A stretch of 64,000 nucleotides of DNA from an uncultured Synergistales bacterium (GTDB taxonomy: Bacteria; Synergistota; Synergistia; Synergistales; Aminobacteriaceae), in assembly GCA_905233565.1 (NCBI GenBank), contig CAJOCL010000005.1:15090-79089 (forward strand). Reading direction: 5' to 3'. A program made the position numbers and the translations under genes. The notes beneath the pieces were generated by a model. The model saw only the letters and a program-made list of their open reading frames with translations. It made no database searches and was not told the origin of the DNA. Positions 15,801 to 19,981 of the stretch are shown here, piece after piece (the stretch's first letter is position 1; every line of letters begins with the position of its first letter).

Positions 15801-16841
15801 TTACATTGATGTGAAATCGTTTATATCAGATATTCCTGCATCGGCAAGCATATGGGCAAATTCCATTCCGTTAATAAGCCGTACAGAATTTTCCTGCGCG
15901 AGTGATATTGCTTCTTTTGAAAATTCTCCTGCTGTTGAGAGAACCCACATAATATTTGTCTCGCCTTCAGCAAAATTTATTGTCTGGAGTTCTTTGTATT
16001 TCTTTATCTGCTGAACTGCCCAATCTCCTGTCATGCCGTCATGCTTCTTAACCTGAATGTATATGTTGACTCCAAGCGGTGAAAATTCTGCTGCTACATC
16101 GGCATCTGCATAGTTATCTTCATTAGGATCCCCTTTAGGCTTTGACGGCTTGTATACGTTTGTTGCTCCGGCTTTCTTCATGTACCAGCGCACAAGTTTT
16201 TCTGTGTCTATAGGGTTTGCATTGTCGGTTATTGCACTGAGAATAATTTTTGTTGCCTCATCTGCAATTACATCATGAAGGTTTACGGGAGCTTTGCTTT
16301 TTGCGGCTTCGTCAATTTCCGGCTGCAAATCATCTACATATGTATTAGTCTGCCGTATCTTCATGCGGGACTGAAGTTTTGCGCCTGCCCAGCTTCTAAG
16401 AATGTTGTACCTGATTTCTTCCGTCTCAACATAGAATCCGAGATCTACAAGTTCATTATTGCGGTAGATACCTTTTTCATCGCTGTCATTCTTCAGGACA
16501 ACCGGCAAATCTTCAAGTGCAGAAGCAGGAAGCTCAGTAACAGGTTTAGGGTCGCTCTTCACGCGTACAATGCTGAAAATACTCCCGTAAAGCGGAACAA
16601 CGATCACATCGCCGGGGCGGAACTGCGAGAATACTATCAACGAACGATTTTTTCTGTACTCCGTCTCGAAAACTTCATACATTAACTTGTTAAGCTCTTC
16701 AGAGCTGCCGTGATTTTTTACATTGCTGGTGGCCTTTTCATTTCCGAGAAGGTATCCCCATCCTATTGTCAAATATCCTCTGTCGAAAAGCGGCTTTGAT
16801 ATACTCCATTCGTGAGATATTCTGTGAATAAAATAGCTCAT
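15801..16841 (-). CDS. Mrr-like restriction endonuclease with N-terminal PUA/EVE-like region
   Basis: A 346-residue putative modification-dependent nuclease. Residues about 190-300 resemble the Mrr catalytic domain of the PD-(D/E)xK superfamily: DADVAAEFSPLG (Asp246/Asp248) followed by IYIQVKKHDG (Gln263, Lys265), the D...QxK form used by Mrr enzymes, then a helix with Gln-rich WAVQQIKKY. The first ~100 residues (RPGDVIVVPLYGSIFSIVRV) look like a small beta-barrel of PUA/EVE type that could read modified bases. The ATG is preceded by AAAGGAGAAAG. The EVE-like gene lies 46 bases upstream on the same strand, so they form a two-gene unit. Cleavage of methylated or otherwise modified foreign DNA is the likely role, inferred from family. 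Confidence 0.8.
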   Translation of the reverse strand: MSYFIHRISHEWSISKPLFDRGYLTIGWGYLLGNEKATSNVKNHGSSEELNKLMYEVFETEYRKNRSLIVFSQFRPGDVIVVPLYGSIFSIVRVKSDPKPVTELPASALEDLPVVLKNDSDEKGIYRNNELVDLGFYVETEEIRYNILRSWAGAKLQSRMKIRQTNTYVDDLQPEIDEAAKSKAPVNLHDVIADEATKIILSAITDNANPIDTEKLVRWYMKKAGATNVYKPSKPKGDPNEDNYADADVAAEFSPLGVNIYIQVKKHDGMTGDWAVQQIKKYKELQTINFAEGETNIMWVLSTAGEFSKEAISLAQENSVRLINGMEFAHMLADAGISDINDFTSM

Positions 16842-16887
16842 GTATCTTTCTCCTTTATTTAATTTTTTTTGAAAATTATAACACTAG

Positions 16888-17358
16888 TTAAACGTTGTAT
16901 TTTTTCTGTAATGCCTCGATGAGAATTTTCACCTGTCCTTCACTGAGGTACGGTGTCTTGTATGTCCTTGTAACTTTATCAAGCAAAGTTTTTATCTCGT
17001 AAGGATACAGGCTCTGATTATAGCCGTCTGAACCTGAGACATTCAGCGGAACAATCATTTTTACTTCATGATAACGCCCGTCATCGGCATCTTCTGCACC
17101 GTGAAGTTCTCTTGCCTTACGTGATGTGATTTCGCCTATGGCAATAACGCCCCTGCCCTTTGAGTAGAACAGCACGTAATCGCCTTTCGGGAAACTGTCA
17201 ACAGCCCATTTAGCACCGCCATATGATTCGATATGTCCTCTTTCAAGCATACATTTTTCATTGTCATCAGACCAGCTCAAATTTGTATCAAACATTATGC
17301 CCTTTTTATTGCAGTACTGCACAAGCACAATTCGCCATTCATTGTAACGATATAACAC
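16888..17358 (-). CDS. EVE/PUA-like domain protein, putative modified-base reader
   Basis: A 156-residue single-domain protein. The central part reads GAKWAVDSFPKGDYVLFYSKGRG, VIAIGEITSRKARELHG and a C-terminal KTPYLSEGQVKILIEAL helix, the pattern of small EVE-like/PUA-like barrels that recognise modified nucleotides. It starts at GTG 17358 with AGGAGG 8 bases upstream. It is transcribed just ahead of the Mrr-like nuclease, whose own N-terminus also looks barrel-like, so the two may act together on modified DNA. Alternatives are an RNA-modification reader or a stand-alone regulator; no catalytic residues are visible. Confidence 0.65.
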   Translation of the reverse strand: MLYRYNEWRIVLVQYCNKKGIMFDTNLSWSDDNEKCMLERGHIESYGGAKWAVDSFPKGDYVLFYSKGRGVIAIGEITSRKARELHGAEDADDGRYHEVKMIVPLNVSGSDGYNQSLYPYEIKTLLDKVTRTYKTPYLSEGQVKILIEALQKKYNV

Positions 17359-17499: not shown

Positions 17500-18510
17500 A
17501 TGGCTTATTATTACTACAGACCGAAGATAACCAGAGATGAATTTCAGGAAAAGGCAAGTGAAATATTATCGCAACACCCTGAATATGAGCCTGTTGAAGT
17601 CCTAAATCTTCCGAACCGTGCAATCTGTTCAAGCTGGTGGGGTCAGTCATGGTGCGAGAATCTCGAACGTTATGCAATATGGGCTAATAACAGGATAACG
17701 CTTGGCAGGAATTACGTACGCAACGGTGCAGTTGTCGACCTGAAAATCAACGGGGGTAACATCAGCGCACTTGTTATAGGCCATTTGAACGAGCCTCATA
17801 GAGTAAAAATAAAAATCTCGCCTATTTCTGAAGAACGGCAAAGGGAAATTGCAGAGCTTGCAGCAGGTAAAATCTATAATCTTGAAGAAATAATATCGGG
17901 AACGTTCCCGGAGAGCCTGAAGGAAAGTTTTTTCCAGAAGGGTATTCTTTTTCCCAGACCTGATGAGATAGATTTCGAGTGTTCATGCTCGGATTTTGCG
18001 AACATGTGCAGACATACGGCGGCGGCACTTTACGGTATCGGCGTAAGGCTTGATACTAACCCCCTGTATTTTTTCGAGATGAGGGGAATTAACATTGATG
18101 ATTTTGTATCGGGCGTTGTTAAGGGGAAAATAGGGAAAATGCTCGACAACATCGGTAATTACAGCCCAAGAATATTGACGGGAGTAAATTTAACGGAAAT
18201 TTTCGGCATGGAAGTTTTCGGCACTGGAAGCCGCGTAACGGAGCCTATAGACCCGATGAGACAGCGCAGCCAGCAGGCAAAACAAGCAAAACGAACGGCA
18301 TTAAAAACTTCAGAAATAATATCGGAAGGGAAACCCGAAAAAGTAATCAATGCCGTACCCGTGTTTGTGCCGTCCGGAAAACTTCAGGCATTACGGAAAG
18401 AACTGCTTAACCTCAAAATTGAAAATATCGTTTTACAAAACAGGCTGTCAGTCATGATAAGATGTGCGGAAAAATTAAAGGCTGCTATTAATCAGTTGAC
18501 ATTAATTTAA
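17500..18510 (+). CDS. SWIM zinc-finger protein with C-terminal IEN coiled coil
   Basis: A 336-residue protein from ATG 17500 (GAAGGAG 13 bases upstream; a TTG at 17479 precedes the ribosome site and is rejected). Residues 42-95 (SSWWGQSWCENLERY, LGRNYVRNGAVVDL) match the N-terminal part of bacterial SWIM-family proteins. The zinc site CSCSDFANMCRH (Cys161, Cys163, Cys170, His172) is the CxCxnCxH SWIM signature, expected to bind DNA or protein. Residues 250-290 are a basic, flexible linker. Residues 297-334 form a coiled coil starting LKIENIVLQ that is shared, without gaps, with the next two genes. It ends by convergent overlap of 23 bases with the HTH gene. SWIM proteins often pair with SNF2 helicases; none is nearby. 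Confidence 0.85.
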   Translation: MAYYYYRPKITRDEFQEKASEILSQHPEYEPVEVLNLPNRAICSSWWGQSWCENLERYAIWANNRITLGRNYVRNGAVVDLKINGGNISALVIGHLNEPHRVKIKISPISEERQREIAELAAGKIYNLEEIISGTFPESLKESFFQKGILFPRPDEIDFECSCSDFANMCRHTAAALYGIGVRLDTNPLYFFEMRGINIDDFVSGVVKGKIGKMLDNIGNYSPRILTGVNLTEIFGMEVFGTGSRVTEPIDPMRQRSQQAKQAKRTALKTSEIISEGKPEKVINAVPVFVPSGKLQALRKELLNLKIENIVLQNRLSVMIRCAEKLKAAINQLTLI

Positions 18511-19273
18511 TATCAAGCTGTGTCAGGCTGTTTATTGCAACGCGGAACTTCTCCAGCTGAGCGGATAACGTTTCAATTTTGCTCTTGAGAAGTACATTTT
18601 CTATTCTCAGCGAATCGATTTCTTTCCTGACGCTTAACTCCTGCTTCTCCTGATTTTCCTGATTTTCTGGGATTTCTTGGTTTTCTTGAATTTCTTGAAC
18701 TTCCTGATTTTCCGTATTGTCATTTGTTGCCTGAATGTCAGAATCAAACTCAGACTGGTAGGAAAAATCGGATACATAAGGGGCTTCGCTGTATTCATGG
18801 ACTGTACTATAATTTTTATTCCGTCTCTCTTCTTCTAAAATCTCTTCTGATGACGGGATCCCTGTAAAGGCCTCAGTTTTTTTGGGCTGTTCTTTTTCCT
18901 GCAGTTCCTGATTTTTGACCGTGATTTTCTTGTCAGACGGCTTATCAGCAGTCTTTTTCACGGGTGTATCTAATTTGTAGCCGAATTTCCACCGCCAATT
19001 TTCCAGATATTTTTTGCTTACATTAAATTCTGCCGCAGCCTGTTCAAATCCAACTTCTTTTACGCGTTCCCATATTTCGTCTCTTTCTTCGGGAGTAAGC
19101 CTTTTTCTGCGGGGAATTATTTCGTTGCCGTTTGCTTTTTTCAGCTGCCATGATTTTATGGCCTGCCACGATGTATCATATTTTTGTGCCGCGTCTGTAA
19201 TCCCTATTTTTTCAGCGTCTTCAAGTATTGCCTGCCGCTCTTCATCTGTAAAATCTTCAGTGTGTTTGGGCAT
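18488..19273 (-). CDS. Tandem-HTH protein with ENQE-rich linker and C-terminal IEN coiled coil
   Basis: A 261-residue protein from ATG 19273, chosen because GGAGGG lies 6 bases upstream; 16 further codons upstream are not needed. Two homologous helix-turn-helix modules occupy residues 8-46 (FTDEERQAIL...IKSWQLKK) and 59-100 (LTPEERDEIW...LENWRWKF), like transposase-type HTHs that end in a Trp. A charged, disordered linker with ENQE/EIQE repeats (about 188-212) leads to a coiled coil at 215-251 beginning SLRIENVLLK. No catalytic domain is present, so it is not a transposase. Its 3' end overlaps the SWIM gene by 23 bases in convergent orientation. The function is unknown; DNA binding and assembly through the shared tail are inferred. 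Confidence 0.75.
   Translation of the reverse strand: MPKHTEDFTDEERQAILEDAEKIGITDAAQKYDTSWQAIKSWQLKKANGNEIIPRRKRLTPEERDEIWERVKEVGFEQAAAEFNVSKKYLENWRWKFGYKLDTPVKKTADKPSDKKITVKNQELQEKEQPKKTEAFTGIPSSEEILEEERRNKNYSTVHEYSEAPYVSDFSYQSEFDSDIQATNDNTENQEVQEIQENQEIPENQENQEKQELSVRKEIDSLRIENVLLKSKIETLSAQLEKFRVAINSLTQLDIKLMSTD
18635..18712 (-). repeat. Degenerate ENQE-type coding repeat
   Basis: Short imperfect repeats of about 12 bases (TCCTGATTTTCC-like on the plus strand) encode ENQE/EIQE units in the linker of the tandem-HTH protein. Unit divergence suggests old slippage; the number of units may vary among strains. Confidence 0.6.
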
Positions 19274-19393
19274 TTTTGTCCCTCCGAATTTCTTAATTTT
19301 TGCTGAAATATATAATAACATAATTTTTTAGAAATTATTATATGATAGAATAATAAAAAGAATAAATAAAAATTTTAGAAAGGAATTTTAATA

Positions 19394-19981
19394 ATGAATA
19401 TGGGAATAGAAACAGGGACAGAAACAGGGACAGGCACGGAAACAGTAAACGCTTCAACAGAACTTGTTGACGGGGGGACTTCAGAACAGGTTAAAAAAGG
19501 CTCAAGCGATTTTACTCTTGAAGAAAAGAAAATGCTTGTTAAAAAAGCCGTCAAGGAAGGTTACAACAAAGTAGCCGAAGAGACCGGCATTACCGCATCA
19601 ATGCTGTATACATGGTCTTTCAACCTGAAGCATAACAGGCCGATGAGGTCTAAAAAATCTGACGTTGAGCCGAAGGAAATTCAGAAAACAGAAAAAGTTA
19701 AACATCATAAACAGCAGGCATCAGAAAAGAAATCAGAAAAAACCGACAAGCCCTCAGTTACAAGCGCTGAACCAGTACAAAAAAAGACCGCAAGCACAAC
19801 CGTTTCAAGCCCTCAGCCCATGACGGAATCTTATATCAGAAAAAGGCTGTCGGAACTTGAAGAAGAGAATAAACAGCTTAAAATTGAGAATGTTGTACTT
19901 AAAGAACGCGAGAATAATTTACTCGGTCAGGTCGACACCTTCCGCGAGGCCATGCAGGTAATGATCCGTAAGCAGCTTTAA
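19394..19981 (+). CDS. Single-HTH protein with C-terminal IEN coiled coil
   Basis: A 195-residue protein. A low-complexity Thr/Glu/Gly start (residues 4-20) is followed by one HTH module at 40-80 (FTLEEKKMLVKKAVKEGYNK...LYTWSFNLKH) of the same kind as the two modules in the adjacent minus-strand gene. A Lys/Ser-rich linker follows, then a coiled coil at 148-192 with LKIENVVLKE at 162-171, matching the tails of its two neighbours. The ATG has AAAGGAA upstream. It is divergent from the tandem-HTH gene, with 120 bases between. No enzyme domain is visible. It may be a DNA-binding partner or a diverged duplicate of its neighbour. Confidence 0.75.
   Translation: MNMGIETGTETGTGTETVNASTELVDGGTSEQVKKGSSDFTLEEKKMLVKKAVKEGYNKVAEETGITASMLYTWSFNLKHNRPMRSKKSDVEPKEIQKTEKVKHHKQQASEKKSEKTDKPSVTSAEPVQKKTASTTVSSPQPMTESYIRKRLSELEEENKQLKIENVVLKERENNLLGQVDTFREAMQVMIRKQL

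Follow-up and report, generated by a model that had tools for sequence, protein, structure and literature searches.

The window, by which we mean the whole 64,000-nucleotide stretch of DNA analyzed here, contains three adjacent genes between positions 17500 and 19981 whose products end in similar coiled-coil tails. The first gene (17500..18510, forward strand) encodes a 336-aa SWIM zinc-finger protein with a C-terminal zipper, recognized from its homologues and their tree, from a terminal helix spanning residues 293-335 in its AlphaFold model and from a CxCx6CxH motif at residues 161-172 (CSCSDFANMCRH; 17980..18015, forward strand) that belongs to the SWIM class (CxCxnCxH). Residues C161, C163, C170 and H172 were invariant in 22 homologues. 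PF04434 matched the protein with E = 0.011 (15.7 bits, below the 19.6-bit cut-off) and 19 of 22 SWIM homologues with E values up to 0.01, and Foldseek of the model returned a weak match to ZSWIM8 only (E = 0.18). On the reverse strand, an ORF with its ATG at 19273, preceded by a Shine-Dalgarno sequence (GGAGGG), encodes a tandem-HTH zipper protein of 261 aa (18488..19273). In its AlphaFold model both HTHs are predicted with confidence and consist of three helices, the linker is disordered and the chain ends in one helix of 54 residues; repeat 1 lies at 19139..19258 (reverse strand; HMM E = 1e-19; three helices with pLDDT of 97-98) and repeat 2 at 18986..19105 (reverse strand; HMM E = 7e-18; pLDDT about 94). 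Within the part of the gene that encodes the linker, positions 18636-18720 form a degenerate 9-bp tandem array encoding Glu-Asn-Gln-rich repeats. The third ORF (19394..19981, forward strand) encodes a single-HTH zipper protein of 195 aa, with its HTH at 19505..19624 (forward strand; HMM E = 3e-14).

Just upstream of the SWIM gene (15801-17358) are genes for an Mrr-type restriction endonuclease-domain protein (15801-16841) and a weakly EVE-like protein, which gave a weak PADLOC match only; the Mrr-type protein falls outside the conserved SWIM/zipper gene pair described below. A defense system was considered as an identity for the three zipper genes and rejected, PADLOC being empty for the SWIM and tandem-HTH proteins and returning a weak HTH match only (E = 0.009) for the single-HTH protein.

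The tails occupy residues 305-333 of the SWIM protein (LKIENIVLQNRLSVMIRCAEKLKAAINQL; 18412..18498, forward strand), residues 222-250 of the tandem-HTH protein, inside its predicted 54-residue helix (LRIENVLLKSKIETLSAQLEKFRVAINSL; 18524..18610, reverse strand), and residues 162-190 of the single-HTH protein (LKIENVVLKERENNLLGQVDTFREAMQVM; 19877..19963, forward strand). An earlier sequence-only reading had placed them correctly and had proposed that three otherwise unrelated proteins share a gap-free tail that assembles them into one complex; its counts of identical residues over 29 columns, namely, 12 between the two HTH proteins, 11 between the SWIM and tandem-HTH proteins and 9 between the SWIM and single-HTH proteins, were reproduced exactly upon recomputation. 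Compared with shuffles within a/d and other heptad classes, these identities (in the order 12, 11 and 9) had P values of 5e-5, 0.0017 and 0.004, so the tails are more alike than two leucine-rich helices would be. When whole proteins were shuffled and searched blindly for the best 29-residue window, the observed best was reached in 5, 1 and 1 of 300 shuffles. This signal is modest, and the three sequences by themselves are therefore weak evidence; it is the family search that makes the case strong. A profile of the three tails run over the window's 2.02-Mb genome matched these three proteins only (next E = 0.37).

Tail profiles built from eight and later thirty tails were run over whole genomes and recovered 36 ORFs, spread over 16 of the 43 genomes from the window's genus (rumen Synergistales), with E values reaching about 1e-17. 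No convincing match was found in 145 other Synergistota genomes or in 22 genomes from other phyla, where the best E value was 1.4e-3. The named relatives among the genomes fetched are Synergistales/Synergistaceae MAGs, with sheep, goat rumen and red deer as sources. An HTH repeat with the pattern KDFTPEERAAILARAxEVGxxxAAxEFGTxWQxxxxW was present in 33 of the 36 tail ORFs in one, two or three copies, with a single C-terminal tail in each, and an independent HTH profile recovered nearly the same genomes. Since the search used the tail alone, this co-occurrence of HTH and tail provides independent support. The N-terminal [FL]TxEE...W module that had been noticed in both HTH proteins of the window is this same repeat, present twice in the tandem protein and once in the single one. 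Because the repeat is common to the tail ORFs, these two proteins are paralogues of one HTH-zipper family, and to that extent the description "otherwise unrelated" fails. Family linkers are flexible and often Lys/Ala-rich, and several members are strongly basic (e.g., 54 K+R versus 25 D+E). Proteins of the form HTH(1-3)-linker-zipper are thus, as judged from sequence, an unnamed, genus-restricted family of predicted DNA-binding proteins; no description of such a family was found in the literature covered, from which subscription journals are mostly absent. The best match in another phylum (E = 1.4e-3) is a Clostridia ORF (L164:1495-1902) with a YRDPxTKKPKSRR N-terminus and a similar LTRENAILKEKI coiled coil at its end. 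A second HTH branch also occurs in the genus (G000:C27 = L212:2984-3445; L211:2349-2762; L108 in G029), in which a related HTH is joined to a different C-terminal domain (IIQSPxGxEIT...KIYIRADExKAYWV) with weak likeness to DUF6465.

Thirty tails could be aligned without internal gaps, their a and d positions being hydrophobic apart from an Asn at a18. L14, L21, L28, L35 and L42 fall at d, and N18, V/I/L25, V/L/I32 and I/V39 at a. No tail departs from E17 at g, N18 at a or L21 at d, and 27 of the 30 have K or R at e22. A parallel dimeric leucine zipper is marked by leucine at d, a beta-branched residue or Asn at a and opposite charges at g and e', and the column counts of the tails agree with this. 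The tail therefore reads as a homologous leucine zipper of roughly 4.5 heptads, and the Asn at a together with a g17-e22' salt bridge would favor parallel coiled-coil dimers. Oddly, almost every tail is hydrophobic at f16 and c20, a feature for which a plain two-stranded coil has no need; these positions may serve a tetramer, a higher oligomer or an additional contact. Eukaryotic bZIP and zipper-only regulators are likewise DNA-binding proteins that pair by means of short zippers containing an Asn, and a zipper-only member exists in both cases (see below), but an HTH here takes the place of the basic region, and the comparison is one of analogy, with no homology claimed. In the PDB, the closest sequence matches to the tail were mostly coiled coils (the YabA N-terminus and designed dimers). 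A generic coiled coil as the whole explanation was rejected because the tail profile is genus-specific: its weak matches outside the genus (G071, G207 and G209) and one inside it (G011) were long or unrelated coiled-coil proteins. The search across genomes bore out the tail as a specific module, found repeatedly on both SWIM and HTH proteins.

Several lines of evidence connect the HTH proteins to insertion sequences. Their best named matches are HTH_Tnp_1, HTH_29, IS66 TnpA (E = 1.5e-7) and IS3 transposase, with HTH_23 also matched; among NCBIfam models the single-HTH protein matched IS66 TnpA (E = 1.7e-4) and IS3 transposase (E = 7.4e-4, spanning HTH and zipper); Tc3 transposase ranked first, weakly, in Foldseek; and the nearest HTH match outside the genus within the phylum is an IS3-like OrfA in G133, with an HTH and a short zipper followed by OrfB. 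IS3 OrfA and IS66 TnpA share with the family an N-terminal transposase-type HTH and a C-terminal leucine zipper, and specific DNA binding by IS911 OrfA/OrfAB depends on its zipper and on the M multimerisation domain, the dimers forming mixed complexes (PMC2909936). That the HTH proteins are OrfA/TnpA-type parts or remnants of IS3/IS66 elements today is, however, improbable. The window proteins score below curated cut-offs (single-HTH protein, 22.1 versus 74 bits for IS66 TnpA and 19.5 versus 24.1 bits for HTH_Tnp_1), no adjacent catalytic ORF (OrfB, DDE) or transposase was found at the window locus or the other family loci read, where the neighbors are ordinary genes, and a terminal-repeat scan around the window genes gave imperfect arms only (73-93%), with no convincing inverted repeats. 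Moreover, the family differs from IS3 OrfA and IS66 TnpA in having one to three HTH repeats, long linkers, a zipper at the extreme C-terminus, solo chromosomal genes and a fusion to SWIM. The HTH dN/dS of 0.17 in orthologue pairs is that of maintained genes, and the pooled tail value of 0.33 lies between it and that of the linker (0.41), indicating moderate constraint on the tail. As OrfB is missing from the loci read, the window proteins score below cut-off and the scan around the window genes gave no convincing terminal repeats, the family appears to work like OrfA without being one. Descent from IS3/IS66-type OrfA proteins with an HTH and a zipper is the most likely source of the family, and an OrfA/TnpA relationship is tenable as the origin of the HTH proteins, not as their present identity. 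A phage or plasmid origin was considered and rejected, as relatives were absent from the viral contigs, phages and plasmids searched. A single birth within the genus without loss or transfer appears unlikely, as the GuaA tree requires 6 presence changes. Two HTH-zipper genes are adjacent on the same strand in G066 (L047:10003-11366).

The SWIM protein has a separate ancestry. It is 56-59% identical to homologues in G019, G007, G006 and G020, and its relatives in Bacillota, Spirochaetota, Fibrobacterota and Synergistota (G020 and G056) are mostly about 240-340 aa long and have no such tail; at most of the fetched loci their genes lie directly downstream of an SNF2 helicase gene. We take this widespread SNF2-SWIM gene pair to be of the YwqA/YwqB type, a pairing made by name. 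The window SWIM protein is roughly 40-58% identical to the SNF2-downstream SWIM proteins of these four phyla but differs from them in having a C-terminal zipper, a convergent HTH-zipper gene and no SNF2 gene beside its own. The SNF2 partner YwqA of Bacillus subtilis is described as a poorly characterized Swi2/Snf2 translocase for which an interaction with RNA polymerase has been reported (PMC7385302). An orthologous SNF2 protein, 68-73% identical to that of G020, is kept at an unlinked site in the window's genome (G000:C22), G019 and G007; none was found in G006. The tailed SWIM proteins of the window, G006, G019 and G007 form one clade (support 98/95) nested among tail-less SWIM proteins. They have a single origin, in which a SWIM subunit of the SNF2-SWIM pair left its SNF2 partner and gained a zipper. 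In G019 and G007 the SWIM protein bears one HTH as well as the zipper. The simplest history would thus be that an HTH-zipper module was captured by the SWIM gene and its HTH lost in G000 and G006, or that the zipper was captured and an HTH gained later.

In all four genomes with a tailed SWIM gene (the window's, G006, G019 and G007), this gene is convergent, tail to tail, with a zipper gene. The 3' ends overlap by 23 bp in the window, 26 bp in G019 and 17 bp in G007 and are 1 bp apart in G006; the convergent overlap of the window recurs at loci L008 and L009. As the window, G006 and G019/G007 have different genes on either side, the SWIM/zipper pair has stayed together across three chromosomal sites. 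In the GuaA tree, the part of the genus that holds G000 and G006 consists mostly of genomes without the family, G019/G007 excepted. The possibility raised in the sequence-only reading, of a generic coiled coil lacking neighborhood conservation, is thereby countered for the SWIM/tandem-HTH pair: a SWIM-tail gene adjoins a tail gene in four of four genomes (three lineages and three sites), the neighbor in one of them being zipper-only. Next to the SWIM genes of the other three genomes there is no equivalent of the single-HTH protein, whose proposed membership in the complex is therefore unsupported. The zipper-only neighbor, in G006, is a 47-aa ORF whose ATG follows a good Shine-Dalgarno sequence (GGGAGGG); upstream of it, no trace of an HTH is left. 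That genome contains only two tails, those of the SWIM protein and of this ORF; every family HTH has been lost there and both zippers have been kept.

The tails of the convergent partners are most like one another, those of the tandem-HTH proteins matching their own orthologues at 18-20 of 29 positions. Their combination of L32 and F35 is exclusive to them (F35 alone also occurs in the single-HTH protein of the window), the SWIM tails have A/L, A/A or L/M at positions 32/35, and other family tails mostly have V/L. SWIM and partner zippers consequently depart from the family in one and the same core layer, one toward larger and the other toward smaller side chains. A bulky residue on one strand opposite a smaller one on the other would be expected of a dedicated heterodimer; seen in three lineages, the arrangement is suggestive. 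A charge code for heterodimers was rejected, as charges at e and g do not discriminate between homo- and heterodimers. These charges are homodimer-compatible in all tails but one, most family genes are solitary among ordinary genes, and the HTH plus zipper on the SWIM protein of G019 and G007 is what fusion with a family member would give; the tails could then be promiscuous zippers that mainly form homodimers, with the adjacency of SWIM and HTH genes a by-product of tail acquisition by insertion or fusion and no dedicated complex. We consider this rather unlikely, because the pair is kept at three sites, including lineages (G000 and G006) with few or no other family members, because G006 retains both zippers although all family HTHs are gone and because the two tails depart from the family at one layer in opposite directions. 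The two tails also form an inverted pair around overlapping stops, as would follow from a recent DNA-level inverted duplication of the 3' ends. Within-locus tail DNA identity (40/87 in the window; 39, 42 and 42/87 elsewhere) is, however, no higher than identity between loci, and tandem-HTH partner tails are nearer to their orthologues in other genomes, as given above; since generic coiled coils elsewhere are not matched by the tail profile, convergence on such a coil fares no better, and we regard duplication or convergence as a very improbable cause of the likeness between neighbors.

Our favored explanation, to which we assign a probability of about 0.6, is that a genus-restricted HTH-zipper family exists and that the SWIM protein is coupled to the convergent tandem-HTH protein by a dedicated zipper heterodimer, an association suggested by the gene pairing and the core-layer residues. 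The SWIM protein and its neighbor would pair through their zippers, and the HTHs of the partner would choose the DNA site, bringing to it the SWIM protein and perhaps also the now-unlinked SNF2 motor. With the HTHs gone in G006, the pair there may function with no specific binding to DNA, or else the role of the zipper-only protein may be to block others. A broader and more tentative proposal is that of a zipper interaction network, in which a young, genus-restricted HTH family with one zipper code may have captured the SWIM subunit of an SNF2-type remodeler for recruitment by DNA-binding partners, with the dedicated heterodimer and a 47-residue zipper-only microprotein as its natural variant. 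If true, this would show the rewiring of a conserved but poorly known SNF2-SWIM pair, in which SWIM quits the operon of the motor and becomes attached, through a transferable zipper, to a DNA-binding protein. The HTH-zipper family is small, apparently recent and found in varied states (fused, paired and zipper-only); comparing close relatives might therefore show how a protein interaction code is born. SWIM proteins from SNF2-SWIM pairs of other phyla carry other C-terminal HTHs, namely, HTH_3 (L155 and L157) and a winged-HTH-like domain (L141), which indicates that the joining of SWIM to DNA-binding domains is recurrent.
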